Of a DNA stretch of 34,435 bases, positions 7,084-18,764 are shown piece after piece (position 1 is the stretch's first letter; each line of letters begins with the position of its first letter). Source of the DNA: Thioalkalivibrio denitrificans (GTDB taxonomy: Bacteria > Pseudomonadota > Gammaproteobacteria > Ectothiorhodospirales > Ectothiorhodospiraceae). Under the pieces are notes generated by a model. It was not told the DNA's origin. It made no database searches and was given only the letters and a program-made list of their open reading frames with translations. Both the position numbers and the translations under genes were made by a program. Location of the stretch: assembly GCF_002000365.1 (NCBI RefSeq), contig NZ_MVBK01000040.1:1-34435 (forward strand). Reading direction: 5' to 3'.

Positions 7084-7236
7084 CCCGCTGCCTCTCTCCC
7101 CCGGGGGAGGTTCATTCACGGGCACGGCTTGTACCGGTGTCCACAATCCCCCGTTACTGGTTGAACGGGTGATTCGCAGGGGCGTATGCTCGATTGTGGG
7201 CCGTGTGCACCGGGCCGCAGGCCGGAGAGGCGGTTG

Positions 7237-8043
7237 ATGGACATTCACAAGATCACGGTCGTCGGCGGTTTTGGCCGCGGCGGTGAGAAGGAGCCCCTGG
7301 AAGGGTTCGAGCTGGAGATGGGCGATGTGGCGAGCATCGTGGGTCCCACCGGCTCGGGGAAGACCGCGCTCATCAACGACATCGGCCTGTTTGCCGCCGG
7401 CAACACGCCGACCCGCCGGCGGATTCTGATTAACGACAGCGATCCGCCGCCTGAATTCCTCGAGGATCCGGCCCGCAATCCCATCGCGCTGATCACCCAG
7501 CATACGAGTTTCCTGTCCGATCTCCCGGTACACCGGTTTCTCTCCCTGCATGCAAAGATCCGCAAGCGGGGCCGTCCCGAAACGATCGTCGAGGAGACGC
7601 TGGATTTCGCCAACCAGCTCACCGGCGAACCGATCAACGTGGACAGCGCCATGACCGAACTCTCGGGTGGCCAGAGCCGGGCCCTGCTGATCGCCGATGC
7701 CGTCGTGATCGGCAATTCACCGATCATCCTGCTGGACGAGATCGAGAACGCGGGCATCGACCGCAGCCGGGCCCTGTCGCTGCTGCGCAATTATCAGAAG
7801 ATCTTCCTGTTCGTGACCCACGACCTGCATATCGCGCTGCTGTCGAACGCCCGACTCGTCATGCGCGCGGGCGCCATGCAGGCACTGATCGCCACCGAAG
7901 AGAGGGAGCAACGCATGGCCGGTAGACTCAGGCAACTGGACGAGATGATGCTTCATTTCCGCGACCGCATTCGCGCCGGTGAGCGGCTCTCCGAGGAGGA
8001 TCTGGAGGCGCGGCTGGCCGCATTGACGGGTGCGCAGCCATGA
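7237..8043 (+). CDS. Soluble ABC-type ATPase of a putative metallocofactor module
   Basis: A 268-residue nucleotide-binding domain with Walker A GPTGSGKT (36-43), signature LSGGQ (142-146), Walker B ILLDE (D167, E168) and the switch histidine H195 in VTHD. No membrane subunit or binding protein is nearby, so it is probably not a transporter. The last 50 residues form a charged helical tail after the ATPase fold. GGAGAGG at 7224-7230 supports the ATG at 7237; the longer frame from 7186 lacks support. The stop overlaps the next start (ATGA, 8040-8043). Being coupled to a HypB/UreG-like GTPase and an Fe-S protein, it may drive assembly or reductive activation of a metal centre. The target is unknown. 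Confidence 0.75.
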   Translation: MDIHKITVVGGFGRGGEKEPLEGFELEMGDVASIVGPTGSGKTALINDIGLFAAGNTPTRRRILINDSDPPPEFLEDPARNPIALITQHTSFLSDLPVHRFLSLHAKIRKRGRPETIVEETLDFANQLTGEPINVDSAMTELSGGQSRALLIADAVVIGNSPIILLDEIENAGIDRSRALSLLRNYQKIFLFVTHDLHIALLSNARLVMRAGAMQALIATEEREQRMAGRLRQLDEMMLHFRDRIRAGERLSEEDLEARLAALTGAQP

Positions 8044-8738
8044 AGGTGGTCATCTGCGCGGGTCCGCCCACCAGCGGCAAGACCACGGTCCTCAAGCAGG
8101 CGGCGCGCAAGCTGCTGGACCGGGGTCGCCGCCTCGCCTATCTCAAGATCGACGTGCAATACGCCGACGAGGATGAGTTGTTCTCAGGGCAGCTTGGCAT
8201 CCCTGCGCGCAAGCTCTATTCCGGTGAGCTCTGCCCGGACCATTGCAGCGTGCTGGTGCTGGGTGATGCCATCCGCTGGGCGGAGGGAGAGGGGGCCGGG
8301 ATTCTCTTCGTGGAGACAGCCGGGCTCTGCCTGCGCTGCGCGCCCTATATCGAGCGTTCGCTCGGCCTGGTGGTGCTGGAGGCCACCTCGGGCATGAACC
8401 TGCCGCACAAGATCGGTGCCATGCTCACACTGGCGGATCTGGCCGCGGTGACCAAGATCGATCTCGTCTCGCAGGCGGAAAAGGAGGTGTTCCGGGCCAA
8501 CATACAGGAGTCCGCCGACATTCCGGTGGTGGAGACGGACGCTCTGCACGGCATCAACATCGATCCCATCGTGGCGCGCATCGATCGCATGGAGGAGACC
8601 ACCGAACCCTGGGTGCTGCGCGGCAATCCACCGGTGTCGACGTGCACCATCTGTGCCGGCAAGAAGGATATCGGCTGGGAGAAGCACTTCGGGATCGTGC
8701 GCGGGCTCGATACGGACCTGTTCTACCGGGGTCAGTGA
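8040..8738 (+). CDS. HypB/UreG-like P-loop GTPase with three Cys pairs
   Basis: A 232-residue P-loop protein with GPPTSGKT (8-15) and TKID (138-141) as the guanine-specificity motif, in the style of SIMIBI metallochaperone GTPases such as HypB and UreG, which deliver nickel. Three cysteine pairs stand out: C65/C69 in CPDHC, C97/C100 in CLRC and C202/C205 in CTIC. They could bind a metal or an Fe-S cluster. It overlaps both neighbours (ATGA upstream, TGATG downstream), so the trio is made together. No hydrogenase, urease or CO dehydrogenase structural gene lies in the window, so the client is either elsewhere or a new one. Confidence 0.72.
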   Translation: MKVVICAGPPTSGKTTVLKQAARKLLDRGRRLAYLKIDVQYADEDELFSGQLGIPARKLYSGELCPDHCSVLVLGDAIRWAEGEGAGILFVETAGLCLRCAPYIERSLGLVVLEATSGMNLPHKIGAMLTLADLAAVTKIDLVSQAEKEVFRANIQESADIPVVETDALHGINIDPIVARIDRMEETTEPWVLRGNPPVSTCTICAGKKDIGWEKHFGIVRGLDTDLFYRGQ

Positions 8739-9403
8739 TGCAACATACCGTCGGAGATATCCTCGCGCTGCTGCCCGGCAAGGACTGCGGCCAATGCGGC
8801 TTTCGGACCTGCCGGGACTTCGCCGAGCATCTGCTCGCACAGCCGGCGGACATTCGCCGCTGTGTGCACCTGGATGCCGACAGCGTGAGGCATTTCCGCA
8901 TTCCGCCCGTCACGATGGAACTGCGGCCACAGGACATCACCTGGCGGGACCTGCTGGACCGGGAATATGACGTGGTGCTGGAACCGTTCCCGGAGGATCC
9001 CGGGCCGCGAGAGGTGATCCTGCCCTTCAACCCCCTCAATGTGGAGCGACTGGACGTCGCCAAGGGCGATATCCTTTTCGGTCGCCCGGCGCAGGCGGCG
9101 TGCCCCATCACCCATGTGGGGCGGGTGATGGAGGCGCCGGATCTGCTCAATGCGCTCATCACCTGGTGCGTGGTCGGACCGCTGGCGGCGAGGGAGGCCG
9201 AATCCAAGGAGATCGGCAATTACACGCCGGTGGCCTATATGGGTCTGGTGCGTCATGCCCGGGTGGAACTGCAGGTGGGCCGCCGCTACCACTTCCTGCC
9301 CGGCCTGTGCATGCTCCAGTCACGCCACTCCGGCGTGATCACCGAACTGGCCCGGCGCCCCGAGGCGACACGCGTGCGCTTCGAGGGGATCTGGATCAGC
9401 TGA
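8738..9403 (+). CDS. Four-cysteine Fe-S domain protein
   Basis: A 221-residue protein whose N terminus has C17, C20, C25 and C42 (DCGQCGFRTCRDFAEHL ... RRC). This is the pattern of the [4Fe-4S] domain found in RnfB and in the acetyl-CoA synthase/CO dehydrogenase gamma subunit. The remaining 170 residues contain no motif I recognise. The stop of the GTPase gene and this start share TGATG (8736-8740). It is the last gene of the trio and is followed by a long palindrome. A role as electron donor or cluster-binding partner in ATP- and GTP-dependent cofactor activation is inferred from context only. Confidence 0.72.
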   Translation: MQHTVGDILALLPGKDCGQCGFRTCRDFAEHLLAQPADIRRCVHLDADSVRHFRIPPVTMELRPQDITWRDLLDREYDVVLEPFPEDPGPREVILPFNPLNVERLDVAKGDILFGRPAQAACPITHVGRVMEAPDLLNALITWCVVGPLAAREAESKEIGNYTPVAYMGLVRHARVELQVGRRYHFLPGLCMLQSRHSGVITELARRPEATRVRFEGIWIS

Positions 9404-10508: not shown

Positions 10509-12050
10509 TCATGAGGCCTCCCTGGACAGCCCGCGTATGCGATCCCGGAACGCATGAAGCGCTGAGTGGAGTGAGCCGGCATCGGCGGGTGAGGCCCAAT
10601 GAACCAGCATGCGTTGCGGATCCGCGCGCAGACGCAGAACGGGCTCGCGGGTACCGGTGATGCGTTCCTCCATCCACCGGTTGCCCAACCGGTAATGGCA
10701 GTCGCAGGGCGCGCAACCGGTGATCAGAATCCCCGCCGCACCCTGACGGCGCAAGGCGAAATCGATCATGCTCGGCGGCAGCATGGCGATGCACGGAAGA
10801 CTCACCCCGACCACGCCCGGTTCATCCAGTGCGGTTACGTCCACGCCGTGATCACAGCCATAGACAATGACCGGATCCGGCGCGGTGCATTCGGAAAGCC
10901 GGCGGGCGGCGGTGTCCCGCACCCCCTCAAGGGGAAGTCCGGGCAGGTCGATCCCGGTGGCCAGCTCGCTCTTGCGGCGGAAGGGGGAGGACGAGGGGCA
11001 GGCGCCGACACAGATTCCGCAGGCCGCGCACAGATCGGGATCGACCATCGCCTGATGGATGAAGCGGCGCCCGTCGTCGCGCTGCTGCAGACTCACGGCG
11101 TCGTAGGGGCAGTCATTCACGCAGCGCCCGCATCCGGTGCACAGGTCCAGATTGACCTCGACGGCGGGGGGCCGCTCCTTGCGTGGGATCAGGGGGAGTG
11201 CGGCCAGCAAGAGCGTCGCGGCGGCGAGGAACGCCCAGACGAAACCCTCGGATGTGACATCAATGAGCGGGAAGACCCACAGATAGAACCAGTCGATGGA
11301 CAGCACGTCGGGGACCGTCCCCAGGTCCGCGAAGTCGTGGCTGACCGCGGGCTTGATCAGTGCCAGCACCAGCATGGCAGCCAGGGTGCCCAGGGCGAGC
11401 TGCCTCGGCGGATTCGTGATCGGCTTGGAAAGCCGGCTGATGTGAAACCAGATGCCGAACAACAGCATGACCGGGAGGCCGATCATGTGCAGGAAGGCCA
11501 TTAGAGTGAAGAAGCGGTCGCTGAGCGTGTCCTCGGTAAGGAAGTTGCGCACCATGTTCTGGCCGAACCAGGGCCACCAGTCCATGAACTCCGAACTGGC
11601 TATGGCGATGTATTGCGCGAGCTTGTCCCAGACCAGCCAGTGCCCTGTGATGCCGAGCAGGATGACGAACCACAGCAGCGGCACGCCGGTGAACCAGGTG
11701 TACCACCGAAAACCGGTGTAACGGCCGAGAATGAATTCCCTGACCAGGTGCAGCGTCATGGTGATCACGGCGGCGTCGGTGGCGTAGCGATGGAAGCTGC
11801 GCATGATGCCGCCCAGATACCACTGATCGTGCGTCAGATACTCGATGGAGTGGTAGGCACCGTGGATACTGAATTCGAAGAAGATGAAGAGATAGATGCC
11901 GGTCAGAACCGCCACCCAGAAGAAGAAGACCGTGAGCGCGCCCAGGAAATGAAAGGGATTGTTTTCGGATCCGAAGGCGGCATCGAAGAGCCCCTCGACC
12001 CGATGCAGGGCGCGGCGTGGAAGCGGCTCACCGGTACTCATGTCAGCCAT
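10509..12050 (-). CDS. Cytochrome b6-like / 2x[4Fe-4S] / MvhD fusion protein B
   Basis: A 513-residue three-part protein. The first 290 residues are a cytochrome b6-like membrane domain with heme ligands H87/H101 and H188/H203; the 15-residue step of the second pair is that of b6, not of bc1. Next come two ferredoxin motifs, CTGCGRCVNDCP and CAACGICVGACP (about 300-350). The C-terminal part resembles MvhD/FlpD, the delta subunit that passes electrons from hydrogenase to heterodisulfide reductase, with cysteines in YGC, LPC and GCAPCDC. It could oxidise quinol at the membrane and feed, or take electrons from, a soluble partner through the Fe-S part. It is a paralogue of the protein encoded at 12707-14308. 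No obvious ribosome site precedes 12050; a second ATG lies three codons in. Confidence 0.85.
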   Translation of the reverse strand: MADMSTGEPLPRRALHRVEGLFDAAFGSENNPFHFLGALTVFFFWVAVLTGIYLFIFFEFSIHGAYHSIEYLTHDQWYLGGIMRSFHRYATDAAVITMTLHLVREFILGRYTGFRWYTWFTGVPLLWFVILLGITGHWLVWDKLAQYIAIASSEFMDWWPWFGQNMVRNFLTEDTLSDRFFTLMAFLHMIGLPVMLLFGIWFHISRLSKPITNPPRQLALGTLAAMLVLALIKPAVSHDFADLGTVPDVLSIDWFYLWVFPLIDVTSEGFVWAFLAAATLLLAALPLIPRKERPPAVEVNLDLCTGCGRCVNDCPYDAVSLQQRDDGRRFIHQAMVDPDLCAACGICVGACPSSSPFRRKSELATGIDLPGLPLEGVRDTAARRLSECTAPDPVIVYGCDHGVDVTALDEPGVVGVSLPCIAMLPPSMIDFALRRQGAAGILITGCAPCDCHYRLGNRWMEERITGTREPVLRLRADPQRMLVHWASPADAGSLHSALHAFRDRIRGLSREAS

Positions 12051-12207
12051 GGGTCGCGCTCGGCACGTGTCGGTCCGTCAGGCGAATCCCTGCTTGAGAC
12101 GGTGGCCCGCAGGCAAAGAAACATGGTGCGTTCATGGTGAATAAAGTGTTGTCTCCCGTCTGGGCAAGATGCCGATTGCCGCGACAGATGGCCATCGTGA
12201 CAGAGAG

Positions 12208-12714
12208 TCAACGGCTCAGCATGAAAGCATTTCTCTCCGCCCGGAAGTCGATGACCAGCAGGTGCGCGGGCTCCAGTTCGACCTGAACCGTCTTGACGTG
12301 GTCGAACCCCTCGGTGGTCACGTCGTCGCGCATGCGCACTTCAAGTTCGTGGCGTCCGGCCGGCACCTCAAAGCCTTCATAGATATAGGCCATGCCGTCG
12401 CGCGAGAGCCCCGAGGGACGCAGTACGGTCGCGAAGACCGGTTCTCCGTTCAGATCGAGCTCGATGGTGATGGGAGAGCGCTCGCGAGGGCAGTCCATCG
12501 GTGTGCGCATGTTGGGCGGGAGCCTCGCCAGCTCCTCCGGGGTTCGTTCCCGGCATTCGCCGACGGTCTTTCCATAGTGGGCGAAGCTGAGCTTGATCAT
12601 GGCCTTGTCATCGGCCAGGTGCGTGTATGCGGGCGAAGTGGAGAGGTAGCCGATGAGGGCCATGAACACCGCATACGCGACAACCTGACCCGCGAATTTC
12701 ATGCCGTTAGACAT
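12208..12714 (-). CDS. Membrane-anchored periplasmic protein, unknown
   Basis: A 168-residue protein with one N-terminal helix (about 7-26) followed by an apparently periplasmic domain. Two cysteines lie about 20 residues apart (GECRERTPEE ... MDCPRE). The second half is beta-rich (ELDLNGEPVFATVL, YEGFEVPAGRHELEVRM). No family was recognised; an immunoglobulin-like or accessory fold is a guess. GGGAGG sits 5 bases before the ATG, and the start overlaps the end of the upstream fusion gene by 8 bp, so the two are translationally coupled. It lies between the two fusion genes and is probably a subunit or assembly factor of their complex. Confidence 0.75.
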   Translation of the reverse strand: MSNGMKFAGQVVAYAVFMALIGYLSTSPAYTHLADDKAMIKLSFAHYGKTVGECRERTPEELARLPPNMRTPMDCPRERSPITIELDLNGEPVFATVLRPSGLSRDGMAYIYEGFEVPAGRHELEVRMRDDVTTEGFDHVKTVQVELEPAHLLVIDFRAERNAFMLSR

Positions 12715-14308
12715 GATCGCCTCCCGCCGCCTGGCGGCCTGTGGCCTGCTTGGATTGCGCGTCATCGGACGGGCCACCCACCGATGACGCCTTGAGGTCG
12801 TTGGCGAACGCCTGGATCTCCGAGCGCAATGTCCGGGCCTCGTTCACGGACGCCCAGCGCACCCTGATCCGGGAGCGGTCCACACGGGCGCGCAGGCGGG
12901 GCTCCCGCTTGCCCTCGATACGTTCCTCCACCAGTGTATTACCCGTGCGGTACTGGCAGTCGCCGCTGCAGCAACCCGTGATGAACACGCCGTCGGCACG
13001 CTCCTCGCGCAGGTTGTACTCGATGGTGGAAGGCGGCAGGAGGCCCGTGCAGGGCAGGCTCACGGTGGCAACCCCGGGCATGTCGAGTGTCTCCACGGCA
13101 ACGCCGTGATCGCATCCATAGACGACGATTCGTGGACGTTCCTCTGCCTTCGACAGGTTGTCCTCCACGGTGGCGTAGAGATGGCGCAGTGAAAACTGCG
13201 GCAGGTCGATGGCAGTGGCCAGTGGGTCATGCTTGCGAAACGGCGTGGCCTGCGGGCAGGACCCGGTGCAGATGCCGCAGCTGACACACATCGAGGGATC
13301 CACCACCGCTTCCTTGTGGGAGCGTTTCTTGTCCTCGCTGATGTGGTCGACCAAAGTGATGGCGCCATAGGGGCAGTCAAGGGCACAGAAGGTGCAACCG
13401 CTGCATTGGGACAGGTGCACCTCGGCGGCCGGTTGCTTCTTTTCCGGCGGCAGCCAGGGCAGCGCGGCGAGCAGGACGGTGCCCACCGCCAGCAGACCCC
13501 AGACAAACTGCGGGGACGTCAGGTCCATGACCGGATAGATCGCCAGGTAGAACCAGTCGAGATTGAGGCGCGTCGGTACCATGCCGAGATCGGCGAACTC
13601 ATGGCTGACGGCGGGCTTGACCAGGGACAGAGCGAGCAGGGCGATCAGTGTGCCGGCCATGACGCTGCGCGGCGGATTGATCTTCGGATTCACCACGCGC
13701 AGCACATGGAACCAGATACCCAGGATCAGGAAGATCGGGATGCCCAGCAGGTGTAGAAACGCCATCAGGGTGAAGAAGCGGTCGCTGAGCGCCTCGTTGG
13801 TGAGGAAGTTGCGGGCCATCGGATCGGTGAAGATGGGTATGGCGTCCAGCAACTCGGCACTGCCGATGGCAATGTACTGCGCCAGTTCGTCCCACACCAG
13901 CCAGTAGCCGGTGATGCCCAGCAGGGTCAGCATCCACAGGAGCGGGACGCCGGTAAACCACGAGTACCAGCGCGGGCCGCGATAGCGGTTTCGCAGGAAC
14001 TCACGCGCCACGTGAAGGAGGATGGCGACGACGGCCGCGTCGGAGGCGTAGCGGTGGAGGCTTCGCATCACACCGCCCAGGTACCACTGTTCGTGGGTGA
14101 GCCATTCCACCGAGTGATAGGCCCCGGTGACGTTCATCTCGAAGAAAATGAACAGGTAGAGGCCGCTGACCAGAATGATCCAGAACAGGTAGATGGTGAT
14201 CGCACCCAGATAGGTGAACGGGTTCTGGTCCTGACCGAAGGCGTAGCCGTACCAGTCCTCCACCCGTCGGAGGGGACGGTATGCCAGGTTGCGGAGCGGG
14301 TTAGACAA
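12707..14308 (-). CDS. Cytochrome b6-like / 2x[4Fe-4S] / MvhD fusion protein A
   Basis: A 533-residue paralogue of the protein encoded at 10509-12050, with the same three parts: a b6-like domain with H85/H99 and H186/H201, ferredoxin motifs CSGCTFCALDCP and CVSCGICTGSCP, and a MvhD-like C terminus with YGC, LPC and GCCSGDC. The two copies could pair like the two halves of a dimeric cytochrome b complex. No Rieske protein, cytochrome c1 or cytochrome c is encoded nearby, so the usual bc1 route is absent. The gene has its own FNR/DNR-type promoter 103-151 bp upstream. Its stop overlaps the start of the anchored periplasmic protein. Confidence 0.86.
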   Translation of the reverse strand: MSNPLRNLAYRPLRRVEDWYGYAFGQDQNPFTYLGAITIYLFWIILVSGLYLFIFFEMNVTGAYHSVEWLTHEQWYLGGVMRSLHRYASDAAVVAILLHVAREFLRNRYRGPRWYSWFTGVPLLWMLTLLGITGYWLVWDELAQYIAIGSAELLDAIPIFTDPMARNFLTNEALSDRFFTLMAFLHLLGIPIFLILGIWFHVLRVVNPKINPPRSVMAGTLIALLALSLVKPAVSHEFADLGMVPTRLNLDWFYLAIYPVMDLTSPQFVWGLLAVGTVLLAALPWLPPEKKQPAAEVHLSQCSGCTFCALDCPYGAITLVDHISEDKKRSHKEAVVDPSMCVSCGICTGSCPQATPFRKHDPLATAIDLPQFSLRHLYATVEDNLSKAEERPRIVVYGCDHGVAVETLDMPGVATVSLPCTGLLPPSTIEYNLREERADGVFITGCCSGDCQYRTGNTLVEERIEGKREPRLRARVDRSRIRVRWASVNEARTLRSEIQAFANDLKASSVGGPSDDAQSKQATGRQAAGGDHV

Positions 14309-15395: not shown

Positions 15396-16262
15396 TCAGC
15401 CGAGCAGCCAGGCATCCAGGATCGCGGCCGTGAGCAGAATCGTTAACTGGATCAGCGAGGCATGGAAATTCTGCATTGCCTTGCGGGGCGTGGGGTCCCG
15501 AAGCAGTTCGATGTTCCTGTAAAGGAAGAATATCCCGCCTGTGATCGCGCCGAGCAGGTAAAGCCAGCCCATGCCGTACCAGAAGGGAATCAGGGATACG
15601 CCGACCAGGAGCAGCGTGTTGATGAAGATGGCCTGTGCGGCGCGATAATCACCCACCACCACCGGCAGCATCGGCACACCCGCGGCTTCGTAGTCCTTGT
15701 GCAGGACGATGGCAAGGCTCCAGAAGTGGGAAGGCGTCCACAGAAAGAGCACGACGGCCAGCAGGATCGGCACCGCGCTGAGGCCGGGATCGACCGCGGC
15801 GGCTCCGGCGAGGACGGCAAAACTGCCGGCCAGGCCGCCCAGCACGATATTGAGCCAGGTCCTGCGCTTGAGCCACGCCGTGTAGACAACGGCGTAGAAG
15901 AAGGCGCCCAGAAATACGTACAGGGCGGCCATCAGATTGAGGGAAACGGCCGCCAGCACCACCGATGCCAGGAGCATCAGGGCGATGATGACCAGGAAAT
16001 AAGGTCCGTGACGAATGGCCCCGGTCACGAAGGGGCGGTTGGCGGTACGGGCCATGCGGGCGTCCAGATCCCGCTCCACGTACTGGTTGTAGCCGCCGGC
16101 GCTGGCCGAGGATATCAGCACGGCGAGGGCGAGGGCCACGATCTGCCATAACTCAGGCGTCGGCCCCGGTGTGACTGCGATACCGGCCAGCGCGGTGAAG
16201 GTGATCGTGACACCAATACGTAGCTTGAATACGTTGGCAAGCTGCCTGGCAATACCGCTCAT
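15396..16262 (-). CDS. ctaB: Heme O synthase (protoheme IX farnesyltransferase)
   Basis: A 288-residue polytopic UbiA-family prenyltransferase. The diagnostic NQYVERDLDARMART motif lies in the first cytoplasmic loop, and a second polar loop carries the HKDYEAAGVPMLP motif. It attaches a farnesyl group to heme b to give heme O, the precursor of heme A. The start at 16262 is preferred, since GAGG lies upstream and the family begins here; a longer frame to 16328 has no support. Its ATG overlaps the stop of a possible small gene (16259-16423). Its place directly after the catalytic subunit means the encoded enzyme probably uses heme O or A. Confidence 0.92.
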   Translation of the reverse strand: MSGIARQLANVFKLRIGVTITFTALAGIAVTPGPTPELWQIVALALAVLISSASAGGYNQYVERDLDARMARTANRPFVTGAIRHGPYFLVIIALMLLASVVLAAVSLNLMAALYVFLGAFFYAVVYTAWLKRRTWLNIVLGGLAGSFAVLAGAAAVDPGLSAVPILLAVVLFLWTPSHFWSLAIVLHKDYEAAGVPMLPVVVGDYRAAQAIFINTLLLVGVSLIPFWYGMGWLYLLGAITGGIFFLYRNIELLRDPTPRKAMQNFHASLIQLTILLTAAILDAWLLG

Positions 16263-16423
16263 GCTAGCCTCACGTTGCTTGGCAACCGGCCGTCCACGGA
16301 CCTTCCCGTCGCAACCAACACGATGCACGGGTCCGTCGTCCAGTGGCTGCGGCCAATGGTATGGGTGGAGGTGTCCCTGCTTCCGGGGTCATGGTCACCG
16401 GGCTGTAGCCAATGGATGTGCAT
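16259..16423 (-). CDS. Possible small coupled reading frame before heme O synthase
   Basis: A 54-codon frame starts at ATG 16423 after GGAGAGG and ends in a TGA that overlaps the heme O synthase start as ATGA. The product is hydrophilic and His-rich at its start (MHIHWLQPGDHD) and has no helix or known motif. The ribosome site and the 4-bp overlap favour translation. The lack of any recognisable family leaves open that it is only a coupling leader or chance. Confidence 0.4.
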   Translation of the reverse strand: MHIHWLQPGDHDPGSRDTSTHTIGRSHWTTDPCIVLVATGRSVDGRLPSNVRLA

Positions 16424-16505: not shown

Positions 16506-18206
16506 TCAGCTCATCGGCCAGACGGAGGACAGGTAGCCGAAGTTGAGGAAGAAGTACACGACGAATGTCGCCAGGAACACCAGGGCCAGGATGAAGGTTC
16601 CCGGGGCCACGAAACCTGCCACGCCGATATTGCTGTGATCGGGTGCGGGTTCGGCCCTCGGAAGCCGTGCCGGCCGTTTGGTGGTGTACTCGCTCTTCTC
16701 GCTCACGCGTTTGCCGAACAGAATGGTCCCCACCATGATGATGATGAAGGCCGCGGCGCCGATCGAGGATATTACCCCGAAGAATCCCGCGAGGCCCATC
16801 ATCATGTGCGCAGTGCCACCATATTCAAAGCTGAACGGCGAGCCGGCGAAGGCCATGTCCCAATGGCGTCGTGACACGCCGAGCGTTCCGGCACCCATCT
16901 GGAACAGCCCCATGAGGGAGGTTCCTATACCGAACAGGTAGGGTTGCCATTTCGCCAGGGTGGGCAACACCAGTTCTCGCTGGAACAGGGCAGGCACGAG
17001 ATAGTAACTGATCGCCATGAAGGCCAGTGTCGTACCCACCGCCACAGTCGGATGGAAGTGGCCGGGCACGTACATGGTGTTATGGATGATCAGGTTGAGC
17101 TGCTCCGTACCCATGATGACGCCGGTGATGCCGCCCAGGAAGCCGAAGCCCACCAGCGAGATGAACATGCCGGAGAACACCGGGTTGCCCCAGGGCGCCT
17201 TGCGCAGCCACTCGAACAGGCCGTTGTTGAGACCCTTCTCACGCTGCGAGACCTCGATGGCGCCGGGCACCGTCAGGCCATGGATCATGGAGGCCAGCAC
17301 CGCCAGGTACATGGCGTAGGAGGTGTTGAACAGCTTCCACTCGGTGCCGACGCCCGGATCCACCAGGATGTGATGGGCGGAAGCCAGCTGCAGGAAGAAG
17401 ATGTACAGCAGGAAGGCCATGCGGCTGACGCGTTCCGACATGGGCCGCGCGCCGAACACGATGGCGGCGATGGCGTACCACACCGAAATGTGTGCCGCGA
17501 CATTGATCTGCTGCGACGAGTGCCCCATGGCCCACCAGATCACCCGGTACATCAACGGATCGATCTGGCTGATGTAGCCGACCGACCAGAGGAAGGTGGG
17601 TACCAGGATCACGGCGCCCGACGCGATGGTGAAGATCGCGATGATGCAGGCGGTGAGCGCGCCGAAGGTCACCAGGGGAATGGAGCCTTCATAGGTGCGC
17701 TCGGCCCTGGCGATCACCAGGGTGCCCAGGAAGATGAAACAGCCTATCAGGGCGCCTACTGCAAAAATGATCAGACCCAGATAGAACTGTGGCGCCGCCG
17801 GCATGGGCACGTAGGAGGTCATCATGACGCTCGAGCCGCCCTGCAGGATGGCTATTGCCGTCATGGCCGCGCCGATCATCATCAGGCCGAAGGCCAGCCA
17901 GCCGAGCCGGGGTGTGGCCAATCGACTTCGGAGCAATGTACTGGCGCAGAAATACAGCAGTGCGATCTCGAAGAAGATGATCCACACCAGCAGGGTGATG
18001 ACGCCGTGTCCGGTAAGTGCCTGGTAGAAGGTGTCCGGCCCGAGCAGGTGCACGGCCTGCCATCGGGTCAGCACGACCAGCAGCCCGAGGAAGCCTCCGA
18101 CCAGCAGGAATACCACGGCGGCGACGGCGTTGGCCTTGATCAGGTTCTCCGCCGGCCTGTGAAATATGAGCCCGGTACGCGGGCAAGTTCGGAATTGTTC
18201 TCTCAT
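16506..18206 (-). CDS. Heme-copper superfamily catalytic subunit lacking the active-site Tyr; probable NO reductase
   Basis: A 566-residue protein with about 14 helices. The metal ligands are all present: H67 (in TGHGV) and H385 for the low-spin heme, H383 for the active-site heme (PGHFHP), and H229, H278 and H279 for CuB. The VDPG sequence after the paired histidines and PGHFH are B-family (ba3-like) traits. The motif GHPxVY, whose Tyr is cross-linked to a CuB histidine in A- and B-family oxygen reductases, reads GHSSQQIN, so Gln233 takes the Tyr position. Loss of this Tyr is the hallmark of B-family-derived nitric oxide reductases such as eNOR. The proposed reaction is 2 NO + 2 e- + 2 H+ to N2O + H2O in the inner membrane. 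It lies 15 bp after the CuA subunit gene. An oxygen reductase with a displaced Tyr is the main alternative. Confidence 0.88.
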   Translation of the reverse strand: MREQFRTCPRTGLIFHRPAENLIKANAVAAVVFLLVGGFLGLLVVLTRWQAVHLLGPDTFYQALTGHGVITLLVWIIFFEIALLYFCASTLLRSRLATPRLGWLAFGLMMIGAAMTAIAILQGGSSVMMTSYVPMPAAPQFYLGLIIFAVGALIGCFIFLGTLVIARAERTYEGSIPLVTFGALTACIIAIFTIASGAVILVPTFLWSVGYISQIDPLMYRVIWWAMGHSSQQINVAAHISVWYAIAAIVFGARPMSERVSRMAFLLYIFFLQLASAHHILVDPGVGTEWKLFNTSYAMYLAVLASMIHGLTVPGAIEVSQREKGLNNGLFEWLRKAPWGNPVFSGMFISLVGFGFLGGITGVIMGTEQLNLIIHNTMYVPGHFHPTVAVGTTLAFMAISYYLVPALFQRELVLPTLAKWQPYLFGIGTSLMGLFQMGAGTLGVSRRHWDMAFAGSPFSFEYGGTAHMMMGLAGFFGVISSIGAAAFIIIMVGTILFGKRVSEKSEYTTKRPARLPRAEPAPDHSNIGVAGFVAPGTFILALVFLATFVVYFFLNFGYLSSVWPMS

Positions 18207-18221
18207 TGACGTAGCCCCCGA

Positions 18222-18764
18222 TCAATCAACGACATAGATTTTGCCGAGCATCTGGTGGTGCAGGATGCCGCAGTACTCGTTACATACAATGGTGAACTCA
18301 CCCGAACTGTCGGGGGTGATGGTGATCACCGTCTCGTAGCCCGGCAGGATCTGCATGTTGATGTTGAGTGGCTGCAGAGAGAAGCCGTGCTGCCAGTCCA
18401 TCGATGACATGTGCAGGCGGTAAGTCTCGCCCTTTCGCAACTCCAGGGCCGGATACCAGTCCCAGAGACGTGCCAGGAGGTAGACGTCGCTGCCGGCGGG
18501 AGGACGAACCACCGGAATATTGCGGTCGGTGACGTGCCGTACGGTATGGTTCTGGACCATTTCCTCCACCTTGACGGAGAAGGCGGCAGGCGTGGTCCGA
18601 TAGGCTTCGCCCTTGTAGTTCTGTTTTCCGTATACGTGCCAGTACGGCATCATGAAAAACATGATCAGACACCAGACCAGCGCGATGGCGACCCAGGTGC
18701 CCTCCGCCCGGTCGATGGGCTGTTTCCACCAGATGCGTTCTGAGGGTGGCAATATCGCAGACAT
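18222..18764 (-). CDS. CuA-containing subunit II of the heme-copper enzyme
   Basis: A 180-residue protein with one membrane helix (about 23-42) and a periplasmic cupredoxin domain. The binuclear CuA ligands are complete: H126 in WQHGF, then C161, E163, C165, H169 and M172 in CNEYCGILHHQM. It should accept electrons from a periplasmic cytochrome c or cupredoxin and pass them to the low-spin heme. No such donor is encoded in the window. AAGGGG about ten bases before the ATG could be the ribosome site. It is transcribed between the one-helix subunit (37 bp upstream) and the catalytic subunit. Confidence 0.92.
   Translation of the reverse strand: MSAILPPSERIWWKQPIDRAEGTWVAIALVWCLIMFFMMPYWHVYGKQNYKGEAYRTTPAAFSVKVEEMVQNHTVRHVTDRNIPVVRPPAGSDVYLLARLWDWYPALELRKGETYRLHMSSMDWQHGFSLQPLNINMQILPGYETVITITPDSSGEFTIVCNEYCGILHHQMLGKIYVVD

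Follow-up and report, generated by a model that had tools for sequence, protein, structure and literature searches.

Two tandem genes of Thioalkalivibrio denitrificans raise the question of what a membrane cytochrome b, fused to iron-sulfur clusters and a FlpD domain, is doing beside a haem-copper enzyme. The genes lie on the minus strand of a stretch of 34,435 nucleotides (contig NZ_MVBK01000040.1, positions 1 to 34,435), referred to below as the window. Their products, here named FLPa and FLPb (together FLP), are accompanied by a small protein (DUF) and by a predicted nitric oxide (NO) reductase of the eNOR type. Phylogenetic and structural analyses, above all the co-occurrence of FLP and eNOR across genomes, make it likely that FLP and DUF form a transmembrane redox module dedicated to eNOR.

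Architecture of the FLP proteins

FLPa and FLPb share 54% sequence identity. Pfam analysis showed that each contains a Cytochrome_B domain (63.4 and 59.9 bits in the two proteins), Fer4/Fer4_7, and a FlpD domain (PF02662; 54.6 and 58.9 bits against a cut-off of 22.3), all above the curated cut-offs. These are the sole FlpD matches in the T. denitrificans genome. The initial annotation had described two paralogues consisting of a cytochrome b6, two [4Fe-4S] motifs and FlpD, with a second His pair 15 residues apart and FlpD fused to a quinone-type cytochrome; these features were all confirmed. The haems of FLPa are ligated by H85 and H99, which are 14 residues apart, and by H186 and H201, with a spacing of 15. 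An alignment of 76 homologues shows no variation at these four His, R82, the eight ferredoxin Cys, or the FlpD residues C399, C420, C446, and C451.

The membrane part exceeds that of cytochrome b6, and contains helices A-D plus two subunit-IV-like helices (E-F). In the AlphaFold2 model of FLPa (pLDDT 92, pTM 0.89), it matches the cytochrome b structures of bc1 and b6. Given six helices and an orientation like that of cytochrome b, the Fe-S/FlpD half would lie on the cytoplasmic side. The loop that aligns with PEWY/PVWY of bc1 cytochrome b reads DW(F/Y), or DWFY; D251 and W252 are invariant in the 76 FlpD-type sequences, and the Pro is mostly absent. This motif hints at a quinol site on the periplasmic side. 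The haem-cn Cys of b6f is absent in most FLPs, which have His, Gln, or Tyr at this position.

The adjacent haem-copper enzyme

The haem-copper enzyme beside FLP consists of subunit I (NorY) and subunit II (NorS). The closest solved relatives of NorY are the B-family ba3-type oxidases. Where these enzymes read GHPIVY (the HPxVY motif), NorY reads GHSSQQ. Q233 (H229+4), which takes the place of the catalytic Tyr of helix VI, and the haem/CuB His are invariant in 61 operon sequences. The CuA motif of NorS (C.E.C...H..M) is conserved in 61 of 63 operon copies, and the other two have a longer spacer. In L094 and L098 (Gallionellales), an insertion in the CuA loop (CGEYCGGVDAMGHHTM) lengthens the Cys-His spacing.

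The published description of eNOR, an NO reductase related to the B family, lists two marks: subunit I has a Gln, and subunit II is a cupredoxin (PMC8756737). For the characterisation of this Gln-type enzyme, PMC11388526 refers to Murali et al. 2024. Because of the Gln at the Tyr position and the CuA cupredoxin subunit II, the genes beside FLP are assigned by sequence to the eNOR type, with NO reduction as the predicted activity. An sNOR identity, which is suggested by the norSY-senC gene order, was rejected: the active-site residue is Gln, whereas sNOR has Asn at this position (PMC8756737, Table A4).

Two further observations concern this enzyme family. At 33 of 82 FLP loci, haem A synthase-like CtaA genes are found on the flanks (for example L048:4168-5133, minus strand), which suggests an A-type haem as a possible cofactor of eNOR. 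After DUF, many loci encode a second haem-copper-like protein of about 460 aa (PF00115), with matches in 50 of 82 (for example L037:12133-13533, and L133 in the T. denitrificans genome). By eye, GGGHxxQF and HYH are kept and two adjacent CuB His are missing, so this protein may be a degenerate, non-catalytic member.

Co-occurrence of FLP and eNOR

When genome contigs were scanned with an alignment of four sequences, 80 FLP loci were identified, which span the Gamma-, Beta-, Alpha-, and Zetaproteobacteria. The link to a Tyr-less haem-copper enzyme, proposed in the initial annotation, was borne out by a wide margin in a co-occurrence check set beforehand. In the class survey (369 genomes), FLP was found in 34 genomes, eNOR-type NorY in 34, and both in 33; in the phylum survey (374 genomes), the numbers were 34, 30, and 29. 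The Fisher p values are about 8e-45 (class) and 5e-37 (phylum), and are not literal probabilities, since the test treats genomes as independent, which they are not. The FLP matches of the class survey are spread over more than 20 families. Two weak NorY matches in genomes lacking FLP are Tyr-type (HPIVY) oxygen reductases and serve as a negative control.

Four of the exceptions can be put down to contigs that stop within the operon or directly next to it: this happens just after NorY or SCO in G298 and G459 (NorY only), and inside SCO in G250 and G506 (FLP only). Another exception (G530) lies on a 5.3-kb contig of a 730-contig assembly, and three others (G522, G610, and G661) are genomes that are 69-77% complete. 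NorY is linked at 61 of the 70 FLP loci having at least 3.6 kb upstream. All 11 genomes checked in which FLP is unlinked to NorY contain eNOR elsewhere. A chance linkage was rejected on the basis of both surveys and of these unlinked but co-occurring genomes.

FLP is also linked to denitrification genes. Members of the cytochrome-d1 family (NirS/NirF/NirN; E <= 1e-60) were found in 31 of 34 FLP genomes, compared with 74 of 369 overall (p 2e-21). At 20 FLP loci, a NirS-type gene is located no more than about 10 kb away, and at 6 an NnrS-type gene, as called by similarity to genes named by eye in L048 and L053. T. denitrificans carries cd1-family genes and a cNOR NorB on other contigs.

No FLP was found among 36 congeners or family members searched, where weak matches cover the cytochrome b part only. 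Ancestry within the host family was rejected for this reason, and the gene set, which is patchily distributed, was probably acquired by T. denitrificans. One contig filed under Acidobacteriota (L084, Polarisedimenticolaceae) has an FLP and a gene context very like those of the gammaproteobacterial L080; a binning error or a recent transfer is possible.

Exchange of the soluble half

In one clade of Betaproteobacteria and relatives, one of the two tandem FLP copies consists of Cytochrome_B, Fer2, FAD_binding_6, and NAD_binding_1. These FNR-type copies are located in the same gene set as the FlpD-type ones, and on the tree their membrane domains group together as a single clade surrounded by FlpD-type domains. 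By sequence, the membrane half was thus retained, and a [2Fe-2S]-FAD-NAD(P)H reductase took the place of the soluble half. This exchange is an argument for a soluble half that acts as the electron link with a cytoplasmic carrier, and against an essential role of FlpD itself.

The electrons might also run towards the cytoplasm. Quinol would then be oxidised at the periplasmic-side DWFY site in an NO-driven electron bifurcation: one electron would enter the high-potential eNOR branch, and the other would pass via haems bP and bN to the cytoplasmic clusters, forming NAD(P)H or reduced ferredoxin. The same role has been proposed for complexes of anammox bacteria in which Rieske/cyt b is combined with NAD(P) oxidoreductase subunits (PMC12954380). 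The invariant D251-W252 and the NAD(P)-binding module of one clade are in line with it. Among the hosts are S- and Fe-oxidising bacteria, which require reductant to fix CO2: Thioploca, Beggiatoa-like bacteria, Gallionella, Mariprofundaceae, and Ramlibacter lithotrophicus. However, not every host is a known autotroph, no Rieske protein or other one-electron acceptor was found for the high-potential branch, and the [2Fe-2S]-FNR reductases mostly run in the usual direction from NAD(P)H to an acceptor. This output role is possible but rather doubtful. A Rieske-less complex in which FLP splits the electrons of quinol, driven by NO, between the CuA branch of eNOR and the fused cytoplasmic Fe-S/FlpD or FNR wire is improbable; if true, the energy to form NAD(P)H or reduced ferredoxin would come directly from NO reduction.

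Neighbours and candidate partners

Among 82 FLP loci, the most constant companions are SCO (70) and DUF (68), followed by CtaB (46) and CtaA-like proteins (33). These neighbours raise another explanation, that FLP and DUF act with SCO to give electrons for eNOR maturation. The electrons could serve to reduce Cu(II)/thiols in the building of CuA/CuB, or be used by CtaA in making haem A; CcoG for the cbb3 oxidases and the mitochondrial ferredoxin for Cox15 would be the models. The distant locus L116, which keeps just an SCO-FLP-DUF cluster though eNOR is elsewhere in its genome, is consistent with this role. However, an intact dihaem b6/IV part, an invariant DWFY, and up to three clusters far exceed the needs of a copper or haem reductase. 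Other SCO/CtaB-dependent oxidases manage without FLP, and it is not easy to see why such a reductase would have tandem paralogues that differ in the soluble module. A maturation role is plausible but rather unlikely. The L116 FLP (L116:7091-10063) is the most divergent one, and its minimal cluster lies behind a TetR-like gene; the eNOR of this genome is also more divergent.

The DUF protein would be located on the periplasmic face. FLP and DUF are a single open reading frame in L042, L047, L054, and L096, and at least two origins of this fusion are required on the tree. The fusion fits a cytoplasmic FLP C-terminus, followed by the membrane helix of DUF and then its periplasmic β-sandwich. The only conserved Cys pair of DUF (C55/C76) is C,C in 64 aligned rows and F,L in 1. 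Because both Cys are lost together, the pair looks like a disulfide and not a metal site. Sequence searches gave no family for DUF, and the modelled β-sandwich had no clear match to a cofactor protein. A role as periplasmic electron carrier was rejected on these three grounds.

The absence of a nearby Rieske protein, stated in the initial annotation, was upheld by a motif scan: none was found in the window, and among the other FLP loci only L112 has one, next to the gene of an ordinary bc1-type cytochrome b. No c-type cytochrome is recurrent within the FLP operons.

The initial annotation had also suggested a soluble partner of the disulfide or bifurcating kind; a disulfide/Hdr partner was not supported, and a bifurcating one may exist. 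FlpD might work with a soluble HdrA/HdrABC or a disulfide-linked partner, like MvhD in methanogens. The domain is a true FlpD according to Pfam, and the ferredoxin-FlpD half resembles the HdrA2 C-terminus (NF040770, 75-91 bits, far under the cut-off). However, HdrA-like proteins were found in 14 of 34 FLP genomes and in 15 of 34 cd1-bearing genomes without FLP (Fisher p = 1.0), so an HdrA partner was rejected for lack of association across genomes. The sole HdrA-like protein of T. denitrificans has 357 aa and is encoded on another contig. No Hdr or Mvh genes were noted among the recurrent neighbours in FLP operons, and the FNR exchange removes FlpD altogether. A partnership of this kind is highly improbable. 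One FLP-bearing survey genome (G050) encodes an HdrA2-like flavoprotein with FlpD (L036:9432-11729, minus strand, 765 aa), distant from its eNOR operon.

Gene organization in the window

The features of the window are listed in Table 1. The order on the minus strand is NorS-NorY-CtaB-SCO-FLPa-DUF-FLPb, followed by a second SCO1 gene. The DUF gene is thus located between the two FLP genes, with an 8-nt overlap between its ATG start and the FLPa stop. The set may end with the second SCO1-type gene; homologues of its product occur at some FLP loci, not all. A promoter/terminator scan was uninformative.

Table 1. Genes of the FLP-eNOR set in the window (all coordinates refer to the window).
Feature	Position	Strand	Evidence
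NorS-like subunit II: one transmembrane helix and cupredoxin, CuA motif CNEYC...H..M	18222..18764	-	COX2 PF00116
NorY-like haem-copper subunit I, eNOR type, GHSSQQ, Gln233 for Tyr	16506..18206	-	COX1 PF00115
CtaB, haem O synthase	15396..16328	-	TIGR01473 above cut-off
SCO/SenC copper chaperone, operon-type, 294 aa	14456..15340	-	SCO1-SenC PF02630
FLPa: cytochrome b6/IV-like (6 transmembrane helices), 2x[4Fe-4S], FlpD; 533 aa, TTG start	12707..14308	-	Pfam, alignment, model
DUF partner, 168 aa: N-terminal transmembrane helix and β-sandwich, probably periplasmic	12208..12714	-	
FLPb: second paralogue, architecture as FLPa; 513 aa	10509..12050	-	Pfam, alignment
Second SCO1-type protein, 199 aa	9525..10124	-	SCO1-SenC PF02630

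Beside the operon, a tight trio of genes on the plus strand (7186-9403) encodes an ABC-type ATPase, a CobW/HypB-like GTPase, and a PF04060 Fe-S protein. It looks like a metallocofactor-loading set. No homologues of the trio were found near other FLP loci.

Proposed function

The probable dedication of FLP and DUF to eNOR leaves the question of where the electrons come from. In the proposed mechanism, a cytoplasmic reductant would be the source of electrons for eNOR: NAD(P)H in the case of the FNR module, and a putative Fe-S or flavin donor in the case of FlpD. The electrons would pass through the Fe-S clusters to haem bN, and then across the bN/bP pair. From bP, they would be delivered to the periplasmic face or into the quinone pool, and so feed NO reduction by eNOR in denitrification. 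Since cytochrome b complexes are dimers, the tandem copies (FLPa and FLPb here, the FlpD-type and FNR-type copies in Betaproteobacteria) would probably form heterodimers. This whole explanation, including the cytoplasmic reductant, is put forward tentatively, at slightly less than even chances.

Several points weigh against it. No cofactor-bearing carrier that joins bP to CuA was found, and the motif scan revealed neither a Rieske protein (apart from L112) nor a cytochrome c1 near the FLP loci; the Cys pair of DUF resembles a disulfide, not a metal site. An ordinary bc1 complex could already feed a CuA enzyme, because a bc1-like cytochrome b is encoded elsewhere in the T. denitrificans genome. 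The periplasmic-side quinol site at which DWFY hints would be needless under a purely cytoplasmic input. Finally, co-occurrence does not show electron transfer. The suggestion in the initial annotation that the fusion proteins feed, or work beside, a NO reductase-like enzyme is compatible with the findings, the direction of electron flow being a proposal.

Relation to known systems and significance

The operon resembles known eNOR systems in the Gln at the Tyr position of subunit I, the CuA cupredoxin subunit II, and the link to cd1 nitrite reductase genes. FLP resembles cytochrome b6/subunit IV in its haem His spacing (14/15), and when it is compared by sequence with the PDB, its best match is a solved b6. 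As in bc1 and b6f, the cytochrome b of FLP is dihaem, and four His serve as ligands. Unlike b6f, FLP has no Rieske protein or c1/f, mostly lacks the haem-cn Cys, contains only helices E-F of the C-terminal half, and has a soluble half fused on. The best profile matches of FLP are ExtP, cytochrome b6, and ExtQ; the ext cluster of Geobacter contains the Rieske protein ExtO (PMC5877670), whereas the FLP loci other than L112 have none. The four invariant Cys of the FlpD family and the preceding 2x[4Fe-4S] domain are shared with MvhD/FlpD and the HdrA2 C-terminus. In contrast to MvhD, FLP is fused to a membrane dihaem cytochrome and has no hydrogenase or Hdr association.

A cytochrome b combined with Fe-S clusters is also found in the anammox Rieske/cyt b complexes, which have a cytoplasmic-side NAD(P) module as well (PMC12954380). 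In FLP, such a module is confined to the FNR-type clade and is not present in the two FLPs of the window; its cytoplasmic location would follow from the orientation proposed above. The anammox complexes, as described there, have separate subunits, a Rieske protein, and multihaem c, whereas FLP is one fused chain, without Rieske and tied to eNOR.

The three-domain architecture has been seen before in passing, uninterpreted. RME88945.1, with cytochrome b6, DMSOR-beta-like, and FlpD domains in one open reading frame, is tabulated only for its C1 domain homologue, with no function or NOR link stated in that table (PMC8756737, Table A3). A keyword search, which covered the searchable text of PMC8756737, PMC8114936, PMC10734462, and PMC11388526 and had Murali et al. 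2024 outside its range, found no mention of a cytochrome b6-FlpD partner of eNOR. With that range, an earlier mention of FLP in eNOR operons may exist.

The NO reductases shape the emission of nitrous oxide (N2O), and eNOR is among the less studied ones. The contact between ferredoxin/FNR and b6f in cyclic electron flow is debated, and the natural cytochrome b6-ferredoxin-FNR fusion is a covalent counterpart of this contact. The FLP gene could be used as a marker for eNOR-type denitrifiers in Pseudomonadota. If the proposed relationship is true, a near-obligate FLP partner linking eNOR to a redox carrier of the cytoplasm would change the view of the electron supply and energy yield of eNOR.

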